Positions 1-63,436 of a stretch of DNA of 64,000 nt are shown piece after piece (position 1 is the first letter of the stretch; each line of letters opens with the position of its first letter). Below the pieces are notes generated by a model, which was given only the letters and a program-made list of their open reading frames with translations, had not been told where the DNA came from and searched no databases. Location of the stretch: contig NZ_QKSD01000001.1 of assembly GCF_003234085.1 (NCBI RefSeq), positions 62,001 to 126,000 of the forward strand. The letters run 5' to 3'. The translations under genes and the position numbers were made by a program. Source of the DNA: Curtobacterium sp. MCPF17_052 (GTDB lineage: Bacteria > Actinomycetota > Actinomycetes > Actinomycetales > Microbacteriaceae).

Positions 1-262
1 TGAGCGTCACGATGGCGCGCTTGGTGTCCTTGCGCTTGCCGATCCCGAACTTGGTCCGGCGGGTCTTGCCCGGACGGTTCAGCGTGTTGATGCCGGCGAC
101 CTTGACGTCGAAGATCTTCTCGATCGCGAGCTTGATCTCGGTCTTGTTCGCACGGGGGTCCACGAGGAACGTGTACTTGCCCTGGTCGATGAGGCCGTAG
201 CTCTTCTCCGACACGACCGGCGAGATGATGATGTCGCGCGGGTCCTTGTTGAAGCCGCTCAT
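1..262 (-). CDS. rplW: 50S ribosomal protein L23, 5' part only
   Basis: Large-subunit protein that sits at the peptide exit tunnel. The minus strand reads [21 protein letters not shown] and continues with an L23-type stretch ([16 protein letters not shown], then [16 protein letters not shown]) until the window edge. The gene runs off the left end, so only about 87 codons are visible. Its ATG (260-262) overlaps the TGA of rplD (259-261) as ATGA, so translation is probably coupled. It is the fourth gene of the S10 operon here. Confidence 0.93.
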
Positions 263-918
263 GCGGTGATCTCCTTCGCGGTCTTCGACGCGATGAAGGC
301 GTCGAGGGCGCTCTTGCTGAAGACGACGGCGTCCGCACGGAGGACGTCGTAGGCGTTCAGCTGGCCGTACGAGAGCGCGTGGACGTTCGGCAGGTTGCGG
401 ACGCTCTTGAGCGTCAGCTCGTCGCCCGACTCGAGCACGATGAGCACGTGCTTGACGGGTGCGACCTTCTCGAGCAGCGTGCGGGCGGTCTTGGTCGACG
501 GCAGTTCTGCCTCGACGAAGCCCTCCACAGCGGAGATGCGGCCACCGCGGGCACGGTCCGAGAGCGAGCCGAGCAGAGCTGCGGCGATCATCTTCTTCGG
601 GGTGCGCTGCGAGTAGTCACGCGGGGTCGGTCCGTGGACGACGCCACCACCGGTGTGCTCCGGGGCGCGGACCGAACCCTGACGGGCGCGGCCGGTGCCC
701 TTCTGCTTGAACGGCTTGCGACCGGCACCGCGGACTTCGCCACGGTTCTTGGTCTTGTGGGTGCCCTGACGCGCGGCGGCGAGCTGCGCGGTGACGACCT
801 GGTGGATGAGCGGGACGTTGGTCTCGACGTCGAAGATCGCTGCGGGGAGCTCGACGGAGCCGGACTTCACGCCCGAGGCGTCGAGGACGTCGATCGTGGT
901 TGCGGTCGTGGTGGCCAT
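259..918 (-). CDS. rplD: 50S ribosomal protein L4
   Basis: L4 binds 23S rRNA and lines the exit tunnel; in some bacteria it also represses its own operon. The protein is 219 residues from this ATG, the usual size. It contains the conserved loop rich in basic residues ([22 protein letters not shown]) and the [15 protein letters not shown] stretch typical of L4. A GTG at 924, in frame and overlapping the rplC stop, is an alternative start; ATG 918 is preferred because GGG of AAGGGTAAG lies about 9 nt upstream. It is the third gene of the S10 operon. Confidence 0.95.
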
Positions 919-920
919 GA

Positions 921-1574
921 TCACTTACCCTTCACGGCGGTGCGGACGAAGACGGAACGGCCACGAGCACCGGGGACGGCGCCCTTGACGAGCAGCAGAC
1001 CCTTCTCGGCGTCGACGGCGTGGACCGTGAGGTTGAGGACGGTCACGCGGTCGCCACCCATGCGACCGGCCATGCGCATGCCCTTGAAGACACGCGACGG
1101 GGTCGAGGAGGCGCCGATGGAACCGGGCTTGCGGTGGTTGCGGTGCGAACCGTGCGAGGCGGAGACACCGGCGAAGTTGTGACGCTTCATGACACCGGCG
1201 AAGCCCTTGCCCTTGCTGGTGCCGACGACGTCGACCTTCTGGCCGGCCTCGAACGTGTCGACGGTCAGCTCCTGACCGAGCGAGTACTCCGCGGAGTCGT
1301 TCGTGCGGATCTCGGTGAGGGTGCGTCGCGGCGTGACACCGGCGGCCTCGAAGTGGCCAGCGGCCGGCTTGTTCACCTTGCGGGGGTCGATCTGGCCCGC
1401 GGCGATCTGGATCGCCTCGTAGCCGTCGCGCTCGATGTTGCGGATCTGGGTGACCACGTTCGGGCCGACCTCGATCACGGTGACGGGGATGAACTTGTTG
1501 TTCTCGTCCCACACCTGGGTCATCCCGAGCTTCTTGCCGAGGAGGCCCTTGACGGTCTTGGTTGAGTTCGCCAT
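921..1574 (-). CDS. rplC: 50S ribosomal protein L3
   Basis: L3 is an early-assembly 23S rRNA-binding protein near the peptidyl-transferase centre. It has 217 residues, with the N-terminal [11 protein letters not shown] signature and the central loop [17 protein letters not shown] and [19 protein letters not shown], all strongly conserved in L3. AAGGGGG lies about 9 nt before the ATG. Only 14 nt separate it from rpsJ, so the two are co-transcribed. Confidence 0.96.
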
Positions 1575-1588
1575 GAGTTCCAGCCCCC

Positions 1589-1897
1589 TTACAGCTTGAT
1601 CTCGATGTTGACGTCGGCCGGGAGGTCGAGACGCATGAGCGAGTCGACGGCCTTCGGCGTCGGGTCGACGATGTCGATGACCCGCTTGTGCGTGCGCTTC
1701 TCGAAGTGCTCGCGCGAGTCCTTGTACTTGTGAGGGGAACGGATCACGGGGATCACGTTCTTCTCGGTGGGGAGCGGCACCGGGCCGACCACGGTCGCAC
1801 CGGCACGGGTCACCGTGTCGACGATCTTCCGGGCCGACGTGTCGATGACCTCGTGGTCGTACGACTTGAGCCGGATGCGGATCTTCTGTCCCGCCAT
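1589..1897 (-). CDS. rpsJ: 30S ribosomal protein S10
   Basis: S10 is a 30S head protein and, as NusE, part of transcription antitermination complexes. The 102-residue protein starts [19 protein letters not shown] and contains GPVPLPTEK and the [12 protein letters not shown] signature. The reading frame stays open well upstream, but this ATG gives the family length and has AGGA 8 nt before it. It is the first gene of the S10 operon, which continues leftwards with rplC, rplD and rplW. Confidence 0.96.
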
Positions 1898-2397
1898 GTG
1901 TTTTCCTGTCCTCTCTGCGCCGCGCACCCTCAGGCCGCCTGACGCCGCCGGGGCTCCGCTGTCGCGTGCCCGGCTGTTTACGTGAACCACCGGCTCCATC
2001 CGCAGGGATGACCGCTGTTCTCCTGTCAACCGCGCGAGTACCCGGGGCACACGCGTGGGCATGTCGTCACCCACGCACCGTGGTGCTGGCGGATGTCGAG
2101 CGTGTTCTGCTGCCTGCGGCCCAACCCAGCCCTGCTGAACAGGGGGGTTGTGCACTGCCAGAGCAGTGACCCCACGGGCGCGAACGCCCGCGGAATTTCG
2201 GAACCGGACAAGTCTCGCATAGGCCATGCCTCCGTGCAACCCGGGCGTGTCGCGATCTCGACGGCGTGTTGCGGAGCGCGCCACGGGCCTCCCGGCCGGG
2301 CTCCCACCGCCGGTCCGGAGCCGGACTGGAGGCACTGGCCGCGCCCGCCAGGTCGGCTCCCGTCGGGCCCTCCGAACGCCGCTGCTAGCCTTCGCGC
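1898..2397. other. Divergent intergenic region upstream of rpsJ and the rRNA methyltransferase gene
   Basis: About 500 bases without a convincing gene, between the divergent starts of rpsJ and the TsnR-like gene. It must hold the S10 operon promoter and leader. A perfect TTGACA on the minus strand (2024-2029) has no acceptable -10 hexamer at 16-18 nt, so I do not call a promoter. A short inverted repeat (cgggcgcgaacgcccg) lies near 2178. Confidence 0.4.
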
Positions 2398-3195
2398 ATG
2401 CCCGATCTCGATGTGCTCGCCGATCCTTCCGACCCCGCCGTCCAGCGGCTCAGCGACCTCGCCAAGCCCGCCCGCGGCGCCGTCCGGACCGCGATCATCG
2501 AGGACCAGGAGCCGCTCGTGCAGGCCCTCCGCGCGGGAGTCCGGTTCATCGAGGTCTACGGCGAGTCCACGCGGGAGTTCCCCGACGACCTCGCGGCTCT
2601 CTGCGCCGAGCTCCGGGTGCCGGTCCGCCTCGTCGAACCGGCCGTGCTCACCAAGGTGTTCCGCAGCGAGAAGCGCCCGAAGGTCTTCGGCGTCGCGAAC
2701 ATCCCCGCACCCGCCCGTTTCTCGGCGCTTGCGGAGGGCACCGGCGACGTGCTGGTCCTCGACGGGGTGAAGATCGTCGGCAACATCGGTGCCATCGTCC
2801 GGACCGCCGTCGGCCTCGGCGCCCGCGGGGTCGTCCTCGTCGACAGCGACCTGCCGACCATCGCCGACCGCCGGGTCGTCCGCGCGAGCCGCGGTCACGT
2901 GTTCTCGGTCCCGGTGCTGCTGGAGTCACGGGAGCGTGTCGCACGCTGGCTCGCCGAGTCCGGCCTGCGGGTCGTCGACGTGGACATGGACGGCTCGCTG
3001 TCGCCCGAGTCGCTCGGCGAGCTCGAGGGCGACGTGGCCCTGCTGCTCGGTGCCGAGAAGACCGGCGCTTCGGACGTGCTGCAGGACCTCGCGGCGGACA
3101 CGGTCTCGGTGCCTATCGACAGCCGGGTCGAGTCGCTCAACGTGTCCGTGGTCGCCGGCATCGTCCTCTACGCCCGCAGCCGGCGCAGCGCCTGA
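2398..3195 (+). CDS. TrmH/SPOUT-family rRNA 2'-O-methyltransferase, TsnR/NshR-like
   Basis: SAM-dependent SPOUT methyltransferase of 265 residues. The N-terminal half has a TsnR-like substrate-binding region ([20 protein letters not shown], residues 34-53). The C-terminal half has the three SpoU motifs: GNIGAIVRT (128-136), LLLGAEKTG (215-223) and [10 protein letters not shown] (246-255). [15 protein letters not shown] and DSD.PTIADRR are close to the thiostrepton/nosiheptide resistance enzymes, which methylate 23S rRNA A1067 in the L11-binding region. Exact target and any resistance role are inferred from family resemblance. It is divergent from rpsJ and convergent with the DarT-like gene. 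Confidence 0.75.
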
Positions 3196-3220
3196 AACAG
3201 GGACACCCGACATCCGGACA

Positions 3221-3278
3221 CCGGACGCACAGAACGCCCCGGCCCGCACGTGCGGGCCGGGGCGTTCTGTGCGTCCGG
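3221..3278. terminator. Perfect 58-bp palindrome, bidirectional terminator
   Basis: Two 29-nt arms are exactly complementary with no spacer (centre between 3249 and 3250); I checked every pair. It lies 25 nt after the methyltransferase stop and 3 nt before the stop of the convergent DarT-like gene, so it most likely terminates both. There is no clear U tract, as is common for actinobacterial terminators. Confidence 0.8.
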
Positions 3279-3281
3279 GGA

Positions 3282-4079
3282 TCAGTCCTCGGGCAGCGGC
3301 GGGACGAACCACGGCGGGAAGACGGCCACGCGCGGAGCGGGCCCACCGTGTTCGGCGAAGACGGCCTTCACCTGCTGACGGACCTTGTCGTTCGGCACCC
3401 CCACCAGGGCGACCGAGGACATCGGCACCTGTGGGCCGGCGAGCAGCTCCACACCGTGCATGGACGGGTCGGTGATGTCGGTGCGGCGGAGGAGGTTGGT
3501 CGCTGCGTCCGGGCCGACGGCGAAGCGCACGTCCGGGTCGTCGGCGTCGGTGTCGGCCAGGATCACGGACGCACCGAACGCGGTCGTCGGGACGACGAGG
3601 ACGACGAACTCGGTCGCGCGGGTGCGCCGGGCGGCGTCGGACCAGCGGTCCTCCTCGGCGCCGGAGCGCAGCTCGTCCCACCGGCGGGCATCGGGTGAGA
3701 GGGTGAACGGGACGTGGCCGGCCACGCTGGAACCGTCGGGGGCGGTGGCCGCAGCACGGGCCTCCCGGGTGGCGGCGGAGCTGACGTCCACGGCCGGCGT
3801 GGCCTGGTCCGACGCGACGATCGCGCCGTCCGCCACGATGCCGGGGAGGTTGTCGATGTGGGTGACGTGGTGCGCGCGGAGCGCACCGAAGTCACGGGTC
3901 GCCGGCAGCACCTGCTCCGGGACCTTGCCGCCCGGCGTCGACGGCGTCGACCGCAGTGACGTGGTCACGCGGGTCCGACGCGGCGTCGGGGTCTTGATGA
4001 TGTCCTCCGGATCACGCTGCCGTGGGGAGCAGATGTCGCAGAGTTCGATGGGGAAACCGTGGATGCACTCGTCGGTCAC
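3282..4079 (-). CDS. DarT-like ssDNA thymidine ADP-ribosyltransferase (DUF4433)
   Basis: DarT enzymes use NAD+ to ADP-ribosylate thymidine in single-stranded DNA and are toxins normally held in check by the macrodomain hydrolase DarG. This 265-residue protein has the DarT-like N-terminal segment HHVTHIDNLPGIVADG (70-85), then VAGHVPFTLSPD (119-130). In DarT the catalytic glutamate lies in a motif matching VELLAGPQVP, which would make it E211. The N-terminus adds a possible zinc knuckle with C5, C14 and C17. No macrodomain gene is next to it. GTG start; the next gene upstream is a topoisomerase. Family call is by motif only; an inactive or housekeeping relative is possible. Confidence 0.62.
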   Translation of the reverse strand: MTDECIHGFPIELCDICSPRQRDPEDIIKTPTPRRTRVTTSLRSTPSTPGGKVPEQVLPATRDFGALRAHHVTHIDNLPGIVADGAIVASDQATPAVDVSSAATREARAAATAPDGSSVAGHVPFTLSPDARRWDELRSGAEEDRWSDAARRTRATEFVVLVVPTTAFGASVILADTDADDPDVRFAVGPDAATNLLRRTDITDPSMHGVELLAGPQVPMSSVALVGVPNDKVRQQVKAVFAEHGGPAPRVAVFPPWFVPPLPED

Positions 4080-4177
4080 GACTGATGGGTCCTTCCGTGC
4101 CTCGTGGGGTGGGCGGGCACGACCACCAACGCTACGTCATCACGGCACTGCCGGCGACCGTTCACCACTCCACCACG

Positions 4178-5155
4178 TCATTGTCGGTAGAGCAGCGCCC
4201 GGACCTCGGACTCGGCCGCGTGCAGACGTCGGGGGTCGATCGTCTCGCCGTGCTCGTACGCGTCGAGCAGCCTGGGGTCGATGTAACTCTGTCTCGCGAC
4301 GGTCGGTGTGTTGCCCAGGACCTCGCTCGCGGCCTTGACGGCGTGCGAGATGGCCTTCTTCCGTTTCGCCTGACTCGACAGCACGCCCGTCTGGGCCAGG
4401 TCGACGGCGGCCGCGACCGTCCCGTGCAGCGTCCGGAAGTCCTTCGCGGTGAAGTCCTCCCCCGCACGCTCCTTGACGTAGGCGTTGATGTCCTCAGCGG
4501 TCACCGGCTCCCAGTCGGCGCCGCGGCGCTCCCGGAACGACAGCAGGCGGGCGTTCGGACCGCGACGCTTCATGCCGACGAGCACACGCGCCAGGTCCGC
4601 GTCGTGGATCGTCGACGACCACGCCTGGTGGCTCTTGCCGGGGAACTCGAGCTCGATGTCATCGCCCGAGATGTGGGCGTGCGTGCAGAGGAGCGTCGAC
4701 AGACCGTGACTGCCGTGCTCGGTGGCGTACCGCTCGGACCCGACGCGCAGGGAACCCTGGTCGAGCATCCGGAACGCCGCGGCCAGTGCACGGCGTCGGT
4801 CCGGCTCCGGACGGCGGAGGTCCTGTGTCACCATCCGTCGCGCAGCCGGCAGGGACTCGGCCAGGGCGAGCGCGCGGTCGTACTTGATCTTGTCCATGCG
4901 GTCGCGCCAGGACGGGTGGTACATGTACTGCCGGCGTCCGGCACCGTCGATGCCCGTCGCCAGGATGTGCCCGTTCTCGTACGGGGAGATCCACACGTCG
5001 TCCCACGCCGGCGGGATGACGAGGTCCTCGAGACGCTGGCGGACCTCCGGATCGGTAACAGTCGTACCGTGCGGGTCCTTGTAGGAGAAGCCCTTGCCGC
5101 TCCGGAGGCGGTGGTAGCCCCGACCCTTGGTCGAGGAACGGCGGAGACGTGTCAC
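4178..5155 (-). CDS. DNA topoisomerase IB (poxvirus type)
   Basis: Type IB topoisomerases relax supercoils by nicking one strand through a 3'-phosphotyrosine. The 325-residue protein has the bacterial topo IB layout: an N-terminal DNA-binding part (RQYMYHPSWRDRMDKIKYDR), the LRVGSERYA active-site arginine region, FTAKDFRTLHGTVAAA with the His/Arg catalytic residues, and the nucleophile in PTVARQSYIDPRLL (Y291). Size matches bacterial homologues. It starts with GTG. It lies between tuf and the DarT-like gene on the same strand as both, but a terminator separates it from tuf. Confidence 0.88.
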   Translation of the reverse strand: MTRLRRSSTKGRGYHRLRSGKGFSYKDPHGTTVTDPEVRQRLEDLVIPPAWDDVWISPYENGHILATGIDGAGRRQYMYHPSWRDRMDKIKYDRALALAESLPAARRMVTQDLRRPEPDRRRALAAAFRMLDQGSLRVGSERYATEHGSHGLSTLLCTHAHISGDDIELEFPGKSHQAWSSTIHDADLARVLVGMKRRGPNARLLSFRERRGADWEPVTAEDINAYVKERAGEDFTAKDFRTLHGTVAAAVDLAQTGVLSSQAKRKKAISHAVKAASEVLGNTPTVARQSYIDPRLLDAYEHGETIDPRRLHAAESEVRALLYRQ

Positions 5156-5244
5156 GTTCCCGATGCAACACCATGGGGGCTGCCCGACGGGGCAGGAACG
5201 TACCCCGGTGCGCGTGCTGGCCCGGACGGCGAGGGCAAACGGAA

Positions 5245-5276
5245 AGCGGGGCCGGACCCGAAGGTCCGACCCCGCT
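5245..5276 (-). terminator. Rho-independent-type terminator after tuf
   Basis: AGCGGGG-c-CGGACC, loop CGAA, GGTCCG-a-CCCCGCT: a 14-bp stem with one mismatch and a tetraloop, starting 17 nt after the tuf stop codon. It closes the str operon and separates it from the topoisomerase gene. Confidence 0.75.
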
Positions 5277-5293
5277 GACGCAAGTGACCGGAG

Positions 5294-6481
<1,188 letters not shown>

Positions 6482-51592: not shown

Positions 51593-52294
51593 TCAGTCGC
51601 TGAGGACCTGGAGCAGGTCGCGGCGCAGGCCGTCGATCTTCTCGGTGGCGGCCTGCGTCTGCTCCTCGGTCGCGCTCGTGCGGAACACGTGGACCACGCC
51701 CACGAGCTTCCGGAGGGCCTCGAAGAACTCGCGCTGCGAGTCCGGCATGCCGGGCGTGGACTCCCACGCGGCGGCGATCTCGTCGGCCTTGGCCTCGGCC
51801 TCGGCCCGACCGGCGTCGGTGAGCTCGAACAGGGTCTTCCGACCGTCGCCCGTGGAGACCACGAGCTCTTCGTCGACGAGCTGCTCGAGCGTCGGGTAGA
51901 CCGAGCCGGGACTGGGCTTCCAGGCGCCGCCGGTGCGCTCGGCGATCGTCTTGATGACGGCGTAGCCGTTCTGCGGGCCCTCGGCGAGGAGCCCGAGGAT
52001 GGCGAGGCGGACGTCGCCGCGGCGACGGCGCTCGCGGCCGGGGCCGAAGCCCGGACCGAAGCCGCCGCCGAACCCGGGGCCGAAGCCCGGTCCGCCGAAC
52101 CCCGGGCCACCGAAGCCGGGACCGAAGCCCCGCCCGCCGCGGCCACCACGGCCGTGTTCGTGGTCACCGTGGTCACGGCCGGGGAACCCGGCACCGTGGT
52201 GCTGGCGGGCGCTGCCGAAGCGGGGCCCGCGGGAGCCGCGACCGAAGGGGTCACGGGGGGACGTGGAGCTGTTCTCGTCGTTCATGGGGTGCAT
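51593..52294 (-). CDS. PadR-family transcriptional regulator with Gly/Phe-rich N-terminus
   Basis: A 233-residue regulator. The PadR winged helix spans about residues 92-170 (RLAILGLLAEGPQNGYAVIK, GSVYPTLEQLVDEELV, ELTDAGRAEAEAKADEIAAA), followed by the C-terminal dimerisation helices. Before it is a 90-residue low-complexity stretch with GFGPGFGG-type repeats, not needed for the PadR fold. AAGGAG lies before the ATG. It is divergent from lhr with its promoter in the shared gap, suggesting autoregulation. Confidence 0.88.
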   Translation of the reverse strand: MHPMNDENSSTSPRDPFGRGSRGPRFGSARQHHGAGFPGRDHGDHEHGRGGRGGRGFGPGFGGPGFGGPGFGPGFGGGFGPGFGPGRERRRRGDVRLAILGLLAEGPQNGYAVIKTIAERTGGAWKPSPGSVYPTLEQLVDEELVVSTGDGRKTLFELTDAGRAEAEAKADEIAAAWESTPGMPDSQREFFEALRKLVGVVHVFRTSATEEQTQAATEKIDGLRRDLLQVLSD

Positions 52295-58020: not shown

Positions 58021-58539
58021 TCAGTGGTCGACGGCCTCGATGATGCAGCTCTGGACCTGCTTCGCGGCGTCCGAGGTCTCGGAGAAGTCGGACGGCGCGG
58101 CGGTCGCGGTGCTCTCGTCGGCGACGACGTCCTCGGCGACCTTGTTCACCGGCACGACCATGCCGTCGAAGTCCTCGGCGGTGGGGTCGGACTCGGTACC
58201 GAAGATCGCGACCTCGTCGTCGTTGGGGTCGTCGCTCTGGTTCGGGGCGACCGAGACGCCGAGGTACCAGCCGGCATCGCCCTTCGTGACGCTCGCGACG
58301 TCCGTGTTGTCGTGCGGCCCCACGGCCTTGTCCACAGCGTCGACGGCAGCGCTCGAGGCGACCTGGCACGGGGCGCTGTTGCGCTGACCCGGGTCCGTGC
58401 GGGTGGCGGACTCCTCCGAGCCGGGCACCTTCGCCACCGGGTCACCGTTCTGGGCGCCGGCGTTCGAGCAGCCGCCGAGCAGCATGCCGATGGTGGCGAG
58501 GCCGACGAGGGTGGCAGTGGTCTTCGCGCGCATGGTCAT
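58021..58539 (-). CDS. Small secreted lipoprotein, unknown function
   Basis: A 172-residue protein with a signal peptide and lipobox LGGC (C24). The exported part is Ser/Ala/Asp-rich, with a cysteine pair candidate (C58 in APCQVAS and the last in QSCIIEAV). No family recognised. It lies downstream of the glucanase gene on the same strand, but a hairpin terminator separates them. Confidence 0.6.
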   Translation of the reverse strand: MTMRAKTTATLVGLATIGMLLGGCSNAGAQNGDPVAKVPGSEESATRTDPGQRNSAPCQVASSAAVDAVDKAVGPHDNTDVASVTKGDAGWYLGVSVAPNQSDDPNDDEVAIFGTESDPTAEDFDGMVVPVNKVAEDVVADESTATAAPSDFSETSDAAKQVQSCIIEAVDH

Positions 58540-58565
58540 GCCGTGGACGGTAGGCCGACGCAGGT

Positions 58566-58603
58566 GTGCCGGAGCCCAGGAGTGCGTCCTGTGGCTCCGG
58601 CAC
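58566..58603 (-). terminator. Terminator of the GT2-adaptor-GH81 operon
   Basis: GTGCCGGAGCC (58566-58576) and GGCTCCGGCAC (58593-58603) pair exactly, with an inner AGGA/TCCT pair, 12 nt after the GH81 stop. Confidence 0.75.
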
Positions 58604-58614
58604 GCCGACTCGCG

Positions 58615-60687
58615 CTACTCGTGCGACATGATCCAGGCGAGCAGGTACGACCGGGTGTTGCCGGTGTCGATGTCCTCCGCCGGCAGGTCCCGGGCGACGG
58701 CGAGCGCCGCCTTCGCCTGACTGCCGGACGCCAGCGCCCGGTACATCAGCAGGTAGTCACCGAACTGCACCGCGTAGTCGCCCTCCGGGACGGCCTCGTC
58801 GAGCACCTTCGCGATCTGCTGCTTGCCCCCGACGGCCACGTAGTCCGCGGCGACGGCGGGCATCGGGATGAGCTCGATGCCGGCCGGTGCCGCCGGGTCC
58901 GCGCTGAACCACGTGGCGTGGTCGCGCTTGCCGCCCCAGTTCAGGGACACGACGGTGTGCTGGAACCCGGGGAAGGTCCGGAGGTCCGGGTCGAGGACGT
59001 CGCGCCGCGCTGATGCAGCCTCGTTCGCCAGCAGCCAGTCGCCGAGTCGTTCGGTGGCTCGGGAGCCGGAGACCTGTCCCCAGCGGGCGAGCCCGTTCCA
59101 GGCCGACACCGCCTCGGACGACGACTCCTGGTTGTTCCCGTCCGCGAACGGCGAGTACCCGGAGGCCCACGAGTGCTGTGCGTACGGGTCGTACACGCGG
59201 AGCTCCGGGAACGACTTCGTCGCCTCGGGGGACGCGATGTCGTCCGCCACCAGGTCGAGGACCGGCTTCCACTTCGCGACGAGGTCGTCCGACCCGTCCG
59301 CCACGATGGCGGCTGCGGACAGCAGGTACCCGTAGTGGAAGTGGTGGTCGTTGAACTCGTCCGAACCGAACGAGGGCGCCTGTCCGACGAGCCCCTTCAC
59401 GGTGTCGTCGTACGCGAAGCACCGGGTGCCGCTCACGCCACACCCGTCGGGGTCGGTCCACTGGTCGATCTGGGTGACGAGTTGCTGCTGCAGGCCGGCG
59501 GCGACGTCGTCCAGGTCGAGCTGTGTGGCGAGCCGGTACAGGTTCGCCACCCGGTACAGGTCCTTGCCGCCGCCGTAGCTGTCGGCGCCGAAGGACGCCT
59601 CCGACACCCCGCCGGCGTCCGCGCGGACCTGGGCGACGAGGGTGGCGCGCTGCGCCGACGTCAGGCCCGACAGGTCGAGCCGGTCGGCGGCCGGGAGGCT
59701 CGGTGCCGCGATCCGCAACACGTCACCGATGCAGACGGGCGCGTCCCCGGTGATGGTCGCGTAGTGCAGTCCGGTGCAGCTCAGACCCGTGGTTCCCTGG
59801 CCGGGTTGCGGCACGATGAGGGTCTTCCCCCTCGCGGCGGTGCGGTAGCCGAGCGCGGTCCGCTGCTCCCCGTCGGATGCGGTGCCGGTGGACGAACGGG
59901 CCATCGTGACCCCGGTCAGGGGCGACGCGGCGGCCGCGGACAGCGCCCGGACCTGCTTCGCGGTGGCGTCGTCCGGCACCGCGAAGAGCACGACCGAGCC
60001 GCCGGCGGCCAGGCGGATGCCACTGCCGCTGACGTCACCGGTGGTGACGACGCCCCAGGTGCGGCCGTCGGCGGTGATGGTGCCCGTCGTCGTGCCGTCC
60101 GGACCGTCGGTCGTCTCGGAGACCGTCCCCGTGGCGGTGACGGACTGCGCGCCCTCCGCCGTGTACGAGACGAGGGGTGAGCCCTGCGCGAGCACGGTGT
60201 GGCCGAGGACGGTGGAGCCCTTCCGGTGCTCGACCGTGACGGACACCTGGTCGTACGCCGACACCAGGGTACGGTCGGCGCCCAGGTGCAGGCCGACCTG
60301 CTGCACGGCACCGCCGGCGATCGTCTTCTCGGTCGCGCTGACGACGGGCAGGCCGGCGGCGAACCCGTCGTCGGTCACCTGCCACGAGATCGGCGTCGGG
60401 AAGACGGGCTGTGGTGCTGGGCCGTGGACGAGGCCGGAGAACCACCGGTTCGTGGGCGGGACCAGGCCGTCGGCGAGACGCATCGTGCCCGCGGTGGTCT
60501 TCGCGACCGAGCCGAGCGCCCGGAGGGCCCGCTGCTGGGCCGCATCGTCCACGGAGGGTGACGCCGTCCCGGTGGCCCGGTCGGAGCCTCCCGTCCCGGT
60601 CTCACCGCCGGTGCCGGTGCAGGCGGTGAGCACGAGTGCTGACGCGGCCACCAGGGCGACGGCGCCGACGCGGAACCGCACCGTCAC
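58615..60687 (-). CDS. GH81 endo-beta-1,3-glucanase lipoprotein
   Basis: Hydrolyses internal beta-1,3-glucosidic bonds. The 690-residue protein has a signal peptide with lipobox LTAC (C23), so it should be tethered outside the membrane. GH81 hallmarks are PPTNRWFSG (77-85), FNDHHFHYGY (445-454) and the catalytic-acid segment NNQESSSEAVSAWNG (518-532) with E521 and E525. It overlaps the adaptor gene by 4 nt. The overlap with the synthase operon implies it edits or releases a beta-1,3-glucan. Confidence 0.88.
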   Translation of the reverse strand: MTVRFRVGAVALVAASALVLTACTGTGGETGTGGSDRATGTASPSVDDAAQQRALRALGSVAKTTAGTMRLADGLVPPTNRWFSGLVHGPAPQPVFPTPISWQVTDDGFAAGLPVVSATEKTIAGGAVQQVGLHLGADRTLVSAYDQVSVTVEHRKGSTVLGHTVLAQGSPLVSYTAEGAQSVTATGTVSETTDGPDGTTTGTITADGRTWGVVTTGDVSGSGIRLAAGGSVVLFAVPDDATAKQVRALSAAAASPLTGVTMARSSTGTASDGEQRTALGYRTAARGKTLIVPQPGQGTTGLSCTGLHYATITGDAPVCIGDVLRIAAPSLPAADRLDLSGLTSAQRATLVAQVRADAGGVSEASFGADSYGGGKDLYRVANLYRLATQLDLDDVAAGLQQQLVTQIDQWTDPDGCGVSGTRCFAYDDTVKGLVGQAPSFGSDEFNDHHFHYGYLLSAAAIVADGSDDLVAKWKPVLDLVADDIASPEATKSFPELRVYDPYAQHSWASGYSPFADGNNQESSSEAVSAWNGLARWGQVSGSRATERLGDWLLANEAASARRDVLDPDLRTFPGFQHTVVSLNWGGKRDHATWFSADPAAPAGIELIPMPAVAADYVAVGGKQQIAKVLDEAVPEGDYAVQFGDYLLMYRALASGSQAKAALAVARDLPAEDIDTGNTRSYLLAWIMSHE

Positions 60688-61424
60688 AGGCCGATCTGCC
60701 GGAGGAAGTCGCGGAAGCCGTCGGTGACGCCGGACAGACGACCGTCGTCGCGGAGGTGCAGGGTCGCGTCGACCGGCGTGCCCGGGCTGGTGACACCGGA
60801 GGACGGCGAGGCCGACAGCTCCGGACTCTCCACCGACACGGTCGTCTTCGCCTGGCCGTCACCGTCGGTGACGACGCTGACGTTCTTGACCTTGCCCTCG
60901 AGCGAGCGGTCGTTCGGCAGGAGCAGGTCGACGGTCGCGCCGTCGGCGATCCGGCCGTAGTCGCGGGGGCTGACGAGGAACTCCGACGTCACGAACAGGC
61001 TCTGCGACTTGTGGATGGTCCCCAGCTCGGAACCGGCCTGGACGTAGCCGCCGGCCTTCACGTCGAGCTTCGCGACGGTACCGGAGACCTCGGCCTTGAA
61101 CGTGATGAGGCCGTCCGGGGCGATCTCGTACGCGCTCGTCTTCGTGTTCGCGCCGACGACGCCCTTCCGGATGTCCTGGGCGAGCTGCAGGCTCTGGACC
61201 TGCATCAGCTTCTCGCCCTCCTGGACGGTGTCGCCCTCTTCGACGTACTCCTCGGTGACGGTCCCGCCGTAGTCGGTGCCGACGGCGTACTCCTGCGCGG
61301 TGATCGCGGCCGAGGTGCTGGCGACGGCGCTCTGCCGCTGGTTGAAGACGAGCGTGCACGCCGCCACGACGACGAGCACCACGAGGATGCCGCCGTACAG
61401 ACGGAGTCGGTTGGTCCAGGTCAC
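60684..61424 (-). CDS. HlyD-like membrane-anchored adaptor protein
   Basis: A 246-residue protein with one N-terminal helix (GGILVVLVVVAACTLVF). The exported part has two lipoyl-like half motifs (GGTVTEEYVEEGDTVQEGEK and EVSGTVAKLDVKAGGYVQAG), then a beta-barrel region, as in membrane-fusion proteins, but lacks their long coiled coil. ATGA overlaps join it to the synthase before it and the glucanase after it. By analogy with Alg44/BcsB it may guide the nascent polymer; this is inferred. Confidence 0.75.
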   Translation of the reverse strand: MTWTNRLRLYGGILVVLVVVAACTLVFNQRQSAVASTSAAITAQEYAVGTDYGGTVTEEYVEEGDTVQEGEKLMQVQSLQLAQDIRKGVVGANTKTSAYEIAPDGLITFKAEVSGTVAKLDVKAGGYVQAGSELGTIHKSQSLFVTSEFLVSPRDYGRIADGATVDLLLPNDRSLEGKVKNVSVVTDGDGQAKTTVSVESPELSASPSSGVTSPGTPVDATLHLRDDGRLSGVTDGFRDFLRQIGL

Positions 61425-63436
61425 GAGGCGACCTCCACGGGGGTCGGGGTGCCGGAGGCGGCACTCGCGGTGATCACGTCGCGTGCGGGCTGCAGCGAGT
61501 CGGGTCGGACCACCTGGGTCCGGAGGGCCGGTGCGGGCTCGAGCCCGGCAGCGGCGGCGAGCACGAGCACCGGCGCGGTGTCGGCGTCGCGCTCCTGGCG
61601 GGCCGCCCGACGGTTCGCCGACTGCTCACGGAACGCGGTGATGATGAACGCGCCGAAGATGAGCGAGTTCGTGATGTTCCACGCGGTCGCCAGGGTCAGT
61701 TGGCCGTTCGAGACGTCACGCCAGATCGCGACGACGCTCGTCAGGGACAGGAACACGAAGACGAGCACCTGGGGCACGATGAAGTTGAACGGTGACGGCG
61801 CCCGGCCTCGACCGGCTCCGGTGACGTGCCACGCCTGCTCCTTCCCGCAGAGGACGTTCCACAGCGCACGTGCGTAGATCGGGAAGGACACCGCCGCGAG
61901 CAGCAGCGTCTCGTAACGGAACGACCCGAGCGCGTAGAACGCCAGGACGACCTGCATGAGGTAGAAGCCCAGGTAGAAGAGCACCCACTCGCCCACGCCG
62001 ATCGACATGTTCATCGGTCGGAGGTCGAAGAAGATCTCGAGCGGCGGGACCAGGAGCAGCAGTCCGGGCACGATGCCGGTCAGGTAGAAGCTCGCCGTCA
62101 CGAAGTACTGCAGGCGCTGGTCCATCGTCAGCTTGCGCTTCGGGTTGAACGGGAAGTGCGTGAGCAGGATCTCGAATCCACCGGTCGCCCAGCGGAGCTG
62201 CTGCTTGCTGTACGCCTCGATCGTCTCGGGGGCGTCACCGACCGCGAGGGTCATCGGGATGAAGACCGACTTCCAGCCGCGCTCGTGCAGGTGCAGGCTC
62301 GTCCAGACGTCCTCGGACTTCGAGTCGGTGTGGATGCCACCGACGTCGTCGATCGCGGCGCGACGGAAGATGACGTTCGTACCGACGCAGAACGCCGCGT
62401 TGAAGCGGTTCCGGCCGGGCTGGATGAAGCGGTAGAACACCGTCTGCATGTAGCCGGCACCGCGGGAGACGAGGTTGTGCAGGTTGCCGTAGGTCTGCGG
62501 CGTCTGCACGAAGGCGATCGAACCGTCCGCGAAGAACGGCACGGTCTCGAACAGGAAGTCCTTGCCCGGCACGAAGTCGGCGTCGAAGACCGCGAAGTAG
62601 TCGCCCTTCGCCAGGGTCAGGGCGTGGTTGATGTTGCCCGCCTTCGCGCCGTTCGAGGACAGGCGCCGGACGTACCGCGCGCCGAGGCGGTCCGCCAGGG
62701 CCCGCACGTCGTCGCTCCGGCCGTCGTCGAGGATCCAGGTGCGGTGCTCGCCGCGCATCGCGACGGCGGCGGCGACGGTGGCCGCGATCTTCGTCAGCTC
62801 CTCGCCGTAGACCGTGATGAACACGTCGACGACGACACGCTTGCCACGGACCCGCATCGGCCACAGGTGGCTGCGGTTCGTGAGCCCCTCGCGGTCGATC
62901 TCGTCCAGGTCGAACATCGTGTCCTGGGTGTTGTGGAACGCGAAGTCGCGAGGGTCCGAGCCACCGGACAGGATCGTCCACATCGACAGCAGCGACTGCC
63001 CGACGAGGACGCTCTCCGCCACGATGACCAGGCCGTAGGGCAGGAAGTCGCCGCGGTTCGCGGGGTTGAGCAGGAACACCGCGTAGGTGACGACGCCGAG
63101 CGTCGCCAGCAGCACGATCAGCACCATCACGGGGCTGTGGGCCCGGGTGTCGGCGCGGGACCGACCGGTGGCGGCGGTGCCGGTCAGGCGCTGGAGCTGC
63201 TCGCGGTCGCGCTGGTCGCGCTCGTCACGGCCGCGCTGGTCACGGTCGCGCTGCTCGCCGACACGGCGGACGGAGCGGCGGGTGGCGGCACGGCCGCGGG
63301 GGTCGGACGCCGCTCCGGTGCCGGGTCGCTCGCCGCCCCGCTCGTTCGCGGGGACGTCGATCACGACCTGTTCGGCCGGGTCGTTCGGGGGTTCTGGGGT
63401 CGTCCGGGGTCGCCGGACGTCCGTGGGTGCGGACAT
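61421..63436 (-). CDS. Processive GT2 polysaccharide synthase
   Basis: A 671-residue membrane glycosyltransferase of the cellulose/curdlan synthase class. The catalytic set is LDDG (D237/D238), FDADF (D285, D287), SEDVW (E375/D376) and QQLRW (412-416), with FCVGTN (349-354) before the third. Two helices precede the domain and about five follow it. The first 100 residues are disordered and basic/acidic (RDRDQRGRDERDQRD). There is no PilZ domain. AGGAG lies 8 nt before the ATG. With GH81 next to it the likely product is a beta-1,3-glucan; that is inferred. Confidence 0.85.
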   Translation of the reverse strand: MSAPTDVRRPRTTPEPPNDPAEQVVIDVPANERGGERPGTGAASDPRGRAATRRSVRRVGEQRDRDQRGRDERDQRDREQLQRLTGTAATGRSRADTRAHSPVMVLIVLLATLGVVTYAVFLLNPANRGDFLPYGLVIVAESVLVGQSLLSMWTILSGGSDPRDFAFHNTQDTMFDLDEIDREGLTNRSHLWPMRVRGKRVVVDVFITVYGEELTKIAATVAAAVAMRGEHRTWILDDGRSDDVRALADRLGARYVRRLSSNGAKAGNINHALTLAKGDYFAVFDADFVPGKDFLFETVPFFADGSIAFVQTPQTYGNLHNLVSRGAGYMQTVFYRFIQPGRNRFNAAFCVGTNVIFRRAAIDDVGGIHTDSKSEDVWTSLHLHERGWKSVFIPMTLAVGDAPETIEAYSKQQLRWATGGFEILLTHFPFNPKRKLTMDQRLQYFVTASFYLTGIVPGLLLLVPPLEIFFDLRPMNMSIGVGEWVLFYLGFYLMQVVLAFYALGSFRYETLLLAAVSFPIYARALWNVLCGKEQAWHVTGAGRGRAPSPFNFIVPQVLVFVFLSLTSVVAIWRDVSNGQLTLATAWNITNSLIFGAFIITAFREQSANRRAARQERDADTAPVLVLAAAAGLEPAPALRTQVVRPDSLQPARDVITASAASGTPTPVEVAS

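Follow-up and report, generated by a model that had tools for sequence, protein, structure and literature searches.

A conserved GT2-HlyD-GH81 operon of monoderm actinobacteria as a candidate beta-1,3-glucan secretion system

Introduction

Which polymer does a bacterium with no outer membrane handle, when it carries side by side the genes of a processive synthase, a HlyD-like protein and a beta-1,3-glucanase? The question is raised by an operon in a stretch of 64,000 nucleotides from the plant- and soil-associated actinobacterium Curtobacterium sp. MCPF17_052 (contig NZ_QKSD01000001.1, positions 62,001 to 126,000), called the window in the following; the source assembly comprises 3.54 Mb and is 77% complete. 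We find that the three genes, here called the GT2-HlyD-GH81 cassette, form a conserved unit that is common to many related genera of the Micrococcales and Propionibacteriales. We further consider it fairly probable that their products constitute a synthase-guide-hydrolase system, by which the monoderm cell produces and exports a beta-1,3-linked glucan that either resembles curdlan or contains long beta-1,3 runs. This reading draws on gene order, conservation, co-inheritance, predicted folds and motifs; the sugar donor, the linkage and the formation of a complex are inferred. The beta-1,3-glucan product is suggested by the GH81 partner together with a few residues of the GT2.

Results

A conserved three-gene unit

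The original prediction, made from the sequence alone, had placed a GT2, a HlyD-like and a GH81 gene next to each other. Open reading frames and Pfam matches bear out coordinates and families, on the minus strand (Table 1). The genes are consecutive and overlap tail to head by 4 nucleotides, which read GTGA and not ATGA as had been stated. The closest named relative of the GT2 among the matches listed is found in Curtobacterium salicis (94%).

Table 1. Coordinates of the operon, its sites and the downstream hairpin within the window
Feature	Position	Strand	Remark
GT2 processive synthase	61421..63436	-	671 residues; ATG start at 63436, AGGAG ahead of start
GT2 channel-entrance site, Gln331 to Arg342	62411..62446	-	alignment; equivalent to BcsA Asn298 and Leu309, CrdS Gln259 and Lys270
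GT2 gating-loop site WHVTG, residues 536-540	61817..61831	-	alignment; replaces FxVTxK
HlyD-like one-helix extracytoplasmic protein	60684..61424	-	246 residues; GTG start
GH81 endo-beta-1,3-glucanase family lipoprotein (predicted)	58615..60687	-	690 residues; GTG start
GH81 lipobox LTA/C (cleavage before C)	60619..60630	-	sequence
GH81 conserved Asp447 in NDHHFHYGY	59347..59349	-	aligned with solved GH81
GH81 conserved Glu521 in NNQESSSE	59125..59127	-	aligned with solved GH81
GC-rich hairpin 3' of the GH81 stop, without T-run	58563..58606	-	14-nucleotide arms, 93% complementary

In a set of 59 genomes, the GT2 (E <= 1e-80) occurs in 13, our own genome included, and in 10 of the 36 genomes within the genus; at all 13 loci the HlyD-like and GH81 genes follow in the same order. 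A scan of named genomes returned 173 relatives, and our counts of gene order, HlyD-like protein length and motifs rest on the best 80 of these 173. There, a HlyD-like gene comes after the GT2 in 80 out of 80 loci and GH81 is next in 78, the other two loci running into contig ends. Carriers include Curtobacterium, Frigoribacterium, Cryobacterium, Microbacterium, Cellulomonas, Cellulosimicrobium, Isoptericola, Sanguibacter, Demequina, Microlunatus and Propionicimonas, among others. Of 248 genomes drawn evenly from the order (GT2 threshold E <= 1e-150), 28 contain the GT2 and 35 a GH81 domain. In each of the 28 GT2-bearing genomes a GH81 domain follows a GT2 domain on the same strand, at a distance of 1.75-2.3 kb, and any GH81 at all occurs in 7 of the 220 genomes without the GT2 (Fisher p 9e-31, a guide only, as species are not independent). 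Among 396 genomes drawn from the phylum, our own is the sole clear GT2 member, the next score being 310 versus 1109 bits.

Because order and strand recur at every complete locus, and the 4-nucleotide overlap of GT2 and HlyD-like genes in 87 of 93 loci, the grouping goes beyond chance. The set of 93 loci, used here and for the motifs below, contains about four near-duplicates, some species having been drawn from two collections. The neighbourhood search proposed with the original prediction shows an operon that is strongly conserved among monoderm actinobacteria. This is in good agreement with the co-divergence of the three proteins (r 0.81-0.88 over 85 loci), computed on a set that left out six loci with cut or broken frames (L025, L038, L051, L054, L095 and L107).

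A fourth general gene was not found: with one locus per genus label, all frames, and flanks of up to 9 kb where the contig allows, no other family reaches more than 8 of the 26 labels. In the same survey GT2, HlyD and GH81 each score 26 out of 26, antisense frames of the operon 13-26, and the commonest other family lies about 5.4 kb downstream. A weaker survey of the 26 loci, with one frame per place, recovered GH81 20, GT2 15 and HlyD 8 times. In two Demequina loci (L074, L103) the GT2-HlyD pair is duplicated ahead of a single GH81, which suggests that both proteins act as a pair. Duplicated cassettes or GT2-HlyD pairs in varied arrangements, e.g., GT2-HlyD-GT2-HlyD-GH81, were seen in L074, L103, L176, L177 and L178.

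The GT2 synthase

The GT2 matches PF13632, PF13641, PF00535 and part of PF03552. Its DDG, DAD, SED and QQLRW motifs make up the D, D, D, QxxRW signature, and the model has a BcsA-like fold in which membrane helices flank the catalytic domain on both sides, as in BcsA, with disordered N- and C-terminal tails. No PilZ domain was found in the window GT2 by the Pfam scan, the C-terminal tail being of low confidence in the model. The closest solved structures are cellulose synthases, and relatives in the databases are often named cellulose synthase or plain glycosyltransferase. Against the CelA model TIGR03030, the protein scores 243.1 bits, below the cut-off of 699.1.

The QTPH motif of BcsA is present in none of the 93 cassette GT2s, and nor is the gating loop FxVTxK, in whose place 89 of 93 loci have Wx[VA]TG. 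Some channel-entrance sites are CrdS-like: at those of Gln237, Gln259 and Lys270 of AtumCrdS, the Gln of Q[ST]PQ and the second Gln are found in 93 out of 93, and Arg, basic but not Lys, in 88 (5 unread).

In a tree, the 29 cassette GT2 rows form a single group (100/100) outside BcsA, BgsA and CrdS together. CrdS is represented by two near-identical rows only, the root is the long NodC branch, the bootstrap is unsettled and the deep forks have supports of 87-92; NodC, the second synthase of our genome and some phylum rows are long branches. A clustering with cellulose, hyaluronan or chitin synthases that have unrelated neighbours had been named beforehand as an outcome that would speak against a glucan system of this kind. 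In the tree BcsA and the cassette GT2s stay apart, which goes against one part of that outcome; hyaluronan and chitin synthases were absent from the tree, except for NodC as the root. The 8 flanks searched around the nearest non-cassette GT2s of the phylum, several of them shortened by contig ends, gave no hit with the models of the cassette HlyD and GH81 proteins.

Our genome has a second cellulose-synthase-like GT2 on contig 3 (L006, 8205-10298), whose catalytic domain carries a long insertion and whose gating loop reads FRVTPK. It stands outside any GT2-HlyD-GH81 unit within the stretch examined. The same locus (204-5636) encodes a YD/RHS-repeat-like protein of 1810 residues, as read from the translation alone.

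The HlyD-like protein

The description of the middle gene product as a one-helix protein with a HlyD-like half-motif is confirmed by a match to HlyD_3 (PF13437), a biotin/lipoyl half-motif and the structure model. The model (mean pLDDT, the per-residue confidence score, 90) comprises a barrel-sandwich and a beta-barrel, with a single helix at the N-terminus and a short one at the C-terminus. A barrel-sandwich from two half-motifs plus a beta-barrel is the arrangement of membrane fusion proteins. A long coiled-coil hairpin between the half-motifs is absent from the model, where about 30 residues take its place with a sole helix at 79-86. The matched stretches are 239-248 residues long in the best 80 of the 173 named relatives. 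Longer copies occur in L030 (276 residues, with a low-complexity linker) and once in L178, and a protein search yielded 157 relatives at E <= 1e-5, those among the 120 matches listed having 240-303 residues. A protein of this hairpin-less shape could sit on the synthase but would be too short to span the distance to an outer membrane easily, as one would expect in a monoderm cell.

The GH81 hydrolase

That the third gene encodes a beta-1,3-glucanase lipoprotein is upheld at the level of sequence, by Glyco_hydro81C (PF17652; 144.9 bits, cut-off 25.6) and by an N-terminal LTAC lipobox. A strict lipobox test finds the motif in 67 of 91 loci, LSACT is found in 4 more, and the other 20 have none by that test. 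We take Glu521 to be the general base and Asp447 the general acid, as assumed from the family. The strict acid and base motifs are each present in 83 of 91 loci. The 8 acid-motif misses keep NDH including the Asp (NDHYFHYGY in six Frigoribacterium, and two Cellulomonas variants), and of the 8 base-motif misses four are variants retaining QE and four have cut or broken frames. With profile and both catalytic-site motifs present, the protein belongs to GH81 and is a predicted endo-beta-1,3-glucanase.

In a GH81 tree, the cassette proteins separate from a second set in the order, the long-frame GH81 proteins, whose frames have 940-1973 residues. Five rows labelled as other are cassette genes by their place, at four loci (L149, L176, L177 and two of L178); the cassette group includes as true non-cassette genes L163 (identical with L150), L168 and, on a long branch, L170. 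Cassette-group GH81 genes with no GT2 or HlyD in 18 kb were seen in L179 (8703-10697) and L180 (8619-10868). Our genome has a 1973-residue frame with a GH81 domain of the long-frame group on contig 28 (L161, 592-6513), and three Cellulomonas loci carry a second, long-frame GH81 gene downstream of the cassette (L088, 12739-16404; L093, 12988-16482; L094, 12860-16327).

The operon end and its neighbours

Of the claim that the operon is closed by a terminator, the structure stands: the 81-nucleotide stretch around the hairpin downstream of GH81 has a folding energy of -47.1 kcal/mol, where shuffled sequences give -33.0 +/- 3.2 (z -4.4). A T-tract terminator was not found by a scan after GH81. The hairpin is the probable end of the operon. 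Beyond it, positions 58021-58539 of the window encode a lipoprotein-like protein of 172 residues with no Pfam match, which adjoins the operon in some Curtobacterium relatives and was not found in others. Positions 51593-52294 encode a PadR-like regulator whose long N-terminus is rich in Gly and Arg, as read from its translation alone.

Discussion

Proposed function

According to fold and motifs, the GT2 would use cytoplasmic UDP-glucose, add glucose processively and push the chain through its own membrane channel. The HlyD-like protein would be anchored by its N-terminal helix, with the body outside, and would probably form a ring over the exit of the channel, where it may cap the channel, receive the chain and guide it through the wall zone. 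The hairpin that diderm relatives use toward an outer-membrane duct is missing in its model. The GH81 lipoprotein, tethered to the outer face of the membrane, may cut misfolded or retained chains and determine when chains are released and how long they are, a role also ascribed to BcsZ and AlgL. Deducing the polymer from the specificity of the linked hydrolase follows a reasoning also applied to clostridial cellulose (PMC7710045).

Several observations weigh against a beta-1,3-glucan product and a strict coupling of the three proteins. Membership of the GT2 in the CrdS, BgsA or BcsA clade was considered and rejected, as the tree, within the limits given above, groups it with none of them. An Arg at the site of BcsA Glu299 is reported for CrdS and BgsA (PMC6821405); the 93 cassette GT2s have Ala (52), Thr (32), Ser (8) or Gln (1) there. 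The His374 site of CrdS is, by our own count, Val446 in the window GT2, and the gating loop is unlike that of all three known families, BcsA, BgsA and CrdS. Q[ST]PQ, the Gln and the basic residue are shared by L118-L120, three GT2s in the alignment that are distant actinobacterial relatives with no known product, so these residues may be ancestral. In two genomes (G508, G592), a cassette-group GH81 occurs where the genome has no GT2 at 1e-150 and no HlyD lies inside the surrounding 18 kb; the cassette type of GH81 can therefore serve elsewhere and is not bound to synthases without exception. Finally, Cellulomonas gelida carries the full cassette (L100), and it reportedly makes no curdlan (Kenyon 2005, as cited in PMC3035266). 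This argues either for regulation or against a link between cassette and curdlan. Cellulomonas fimi carries the GT2 (P0146, P0149 and P0155, GT2 alone read), and Cellulomonas flavigena is not named among the 120 of 2889 matches listed.

Alternative explanations

The operon might make a mixed-linkage (1,3;1,4)-beta-glucan like Sinorhizobium BgsA, with GH81 acting on its beta-1,3 runs. BgsA shares QTPQ, Gln and the basic residue at the channel entrance and is likewise paired with a HlyD-like protein (PMC9495663), and the monoderm Romboutsia makes such a glucan with a GT2 (PMC10374906). Yet our GT2 lies outside the BgsA group, without the BgsA Arg at the Glu299 site and without an FxVTxK loop. 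GH81 enzymes are known for runs of beta-1,3 bonds, and a strictly alternating polymer has no such runs. We regard this explanation as unlikely.

The product might instead be cellulose or another glucan, with GH81 serving defence, fungal competition or food supply. The nearest solved relatives of the GT2 and several database names point to cellulose synthase, and G508 and G592 have the cassette type of GH81 with no synthase. However, GH81 adjoins the GT2 at every locus not ended by a contig and co-diverges with it, and the majority of the remaining GH81 proteins in the order have long frames and fall into a different group. As for cellulose in particular, the CelA model score (243 versus a cut-off of 699) and the complete lack of QTPH and FxVTxK in 93 GT2s speak against it. 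Such a division of labour seems to us similarly improbable.

With Cellulomonas and Cellulosimicrobium, genera known as plant-wall degraders are among the carriers, which would suit a glucan-degrading operon whose GT2 is a wall or teichuronic-type synthase grouped for historical reasons. We give this little credit in view of the overlap of GT2 and HlyD-like genes in 87 of 93 loci, the duplicated GT2-HlyD pairs in Demequina and L178, and the patchy presence in the genus (10 of 36), which is unlike an essential wall enzyme. We give equally little credit to a role of the HlyD-like protein in an efflux pump instead of polymer export, given its coupling to the GT2 in 80 of 80 named loci and the want of any other family nearby in more than 8 of 26 labels.

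Significance

Returning to beta-1,3-glucan export, we put forward tentatively, and at slightly less than even chances, that the cassette represents a monoderm-specific class: a WxVTG subfamily of GT2, a hairpin-less HlyD-like exit cap replacing BcsB, and a membrane-tethered GH81 trimmer. This class would be common in Micrococcales and Propionibacteriales, and might account for some of the curdlan-type polymers reported from Cellulomonas. If so, many soil and leaf actinobacteria own a small and complete glucan machine, whose synthase is often named cellulose synthase in databases. Beta-1,3-glucan is read as fungal by plants and animals, and the operon would provide a genetic candidate for its actinobacterial form. 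It would also offer a test case for the 1,3 or 1,4 specificity of GT2 enzymes and could be compared, as a minimal export system, with Bcs and Crd.

Comparison with known systems

The original prediction knew of no well-described system of exactly this layout, which was overstated, as precedents exist in PMC12430437 (Xcs), PMC9495663 (BgsBA, CrdASC) and PMC7710045 (CcsZABHI). The cyanobacterial XcsA-XcsB(HlyD)-XcsC cellulose operons unite synthase, HlyD-like protein and endoglucanase in the same gene layout, e.g., Synechococcus elongatus 1398-1400 and Nostoc punctiforme F6499-F6501. They differ in the polymer, a PilZ domain on the synthase, an endoglucanase that is not GH81, and a diderm cell with a proposed TolC duct. 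The clostridial synthase operon CcsZABHI likewise belongs to monoderms, includes a hydrolase and lacks any outer-membrane component, but it makes cellulose and has a GH5 cellulase, CcsB instead of HlyD, and acetylation genes. Compared with BcsAB-BcsZ, the cassette lacks the PilZ, QTPH and FxVTxK of BcsA, has GH81 versus GH8, and carries a HlyD-like protein in the position of BcsB.

The pairing of GT2 and HlyD-like protein is shared by Agrobacterium CrdASC and S. meliloti BgsBA (PMC9495663). In CrdASC (L137), the beta-1,3-glucan GT2 adjoins the HlyD-like CrdA and shares QTPQ, Gln259 and a basic channel-entrance residue; in contrast, it belongs to a separate clade, CrdA has 484 residues versus 246 here, and CrdS has the FxVTxK loop. 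CrdC has no family match over the cut-off, so no hydrolase is recognised in CrdASC. BgsBA resembles the cassette in that its GT2 is without PilZ (PMC9495663, PMC10374906). It differs by a separate clade and by the HlyD-like partner (L142), which has about 190 residues between the half-motifs, the first being a weak match, versus about 30 here; no glycoside hydrolase is annotated within 8 kb around it.

In the open full-text literature, as far as its texts were accessible and with subscription papers outside the search, no description of a GT2-HlyD-GH81 operon was found. The layout is already known from cyanobacterial cellulose operons and the pairing of GT2 and HlyD from BgsBA and CrdASC. As far as can be seen, what is new is the clade to which the GT2 belongs, a partner without the hairpin, a GH81 as the hydrolase and the occurrence in monoderms, together with a wide distribution that has so far gone without a name.

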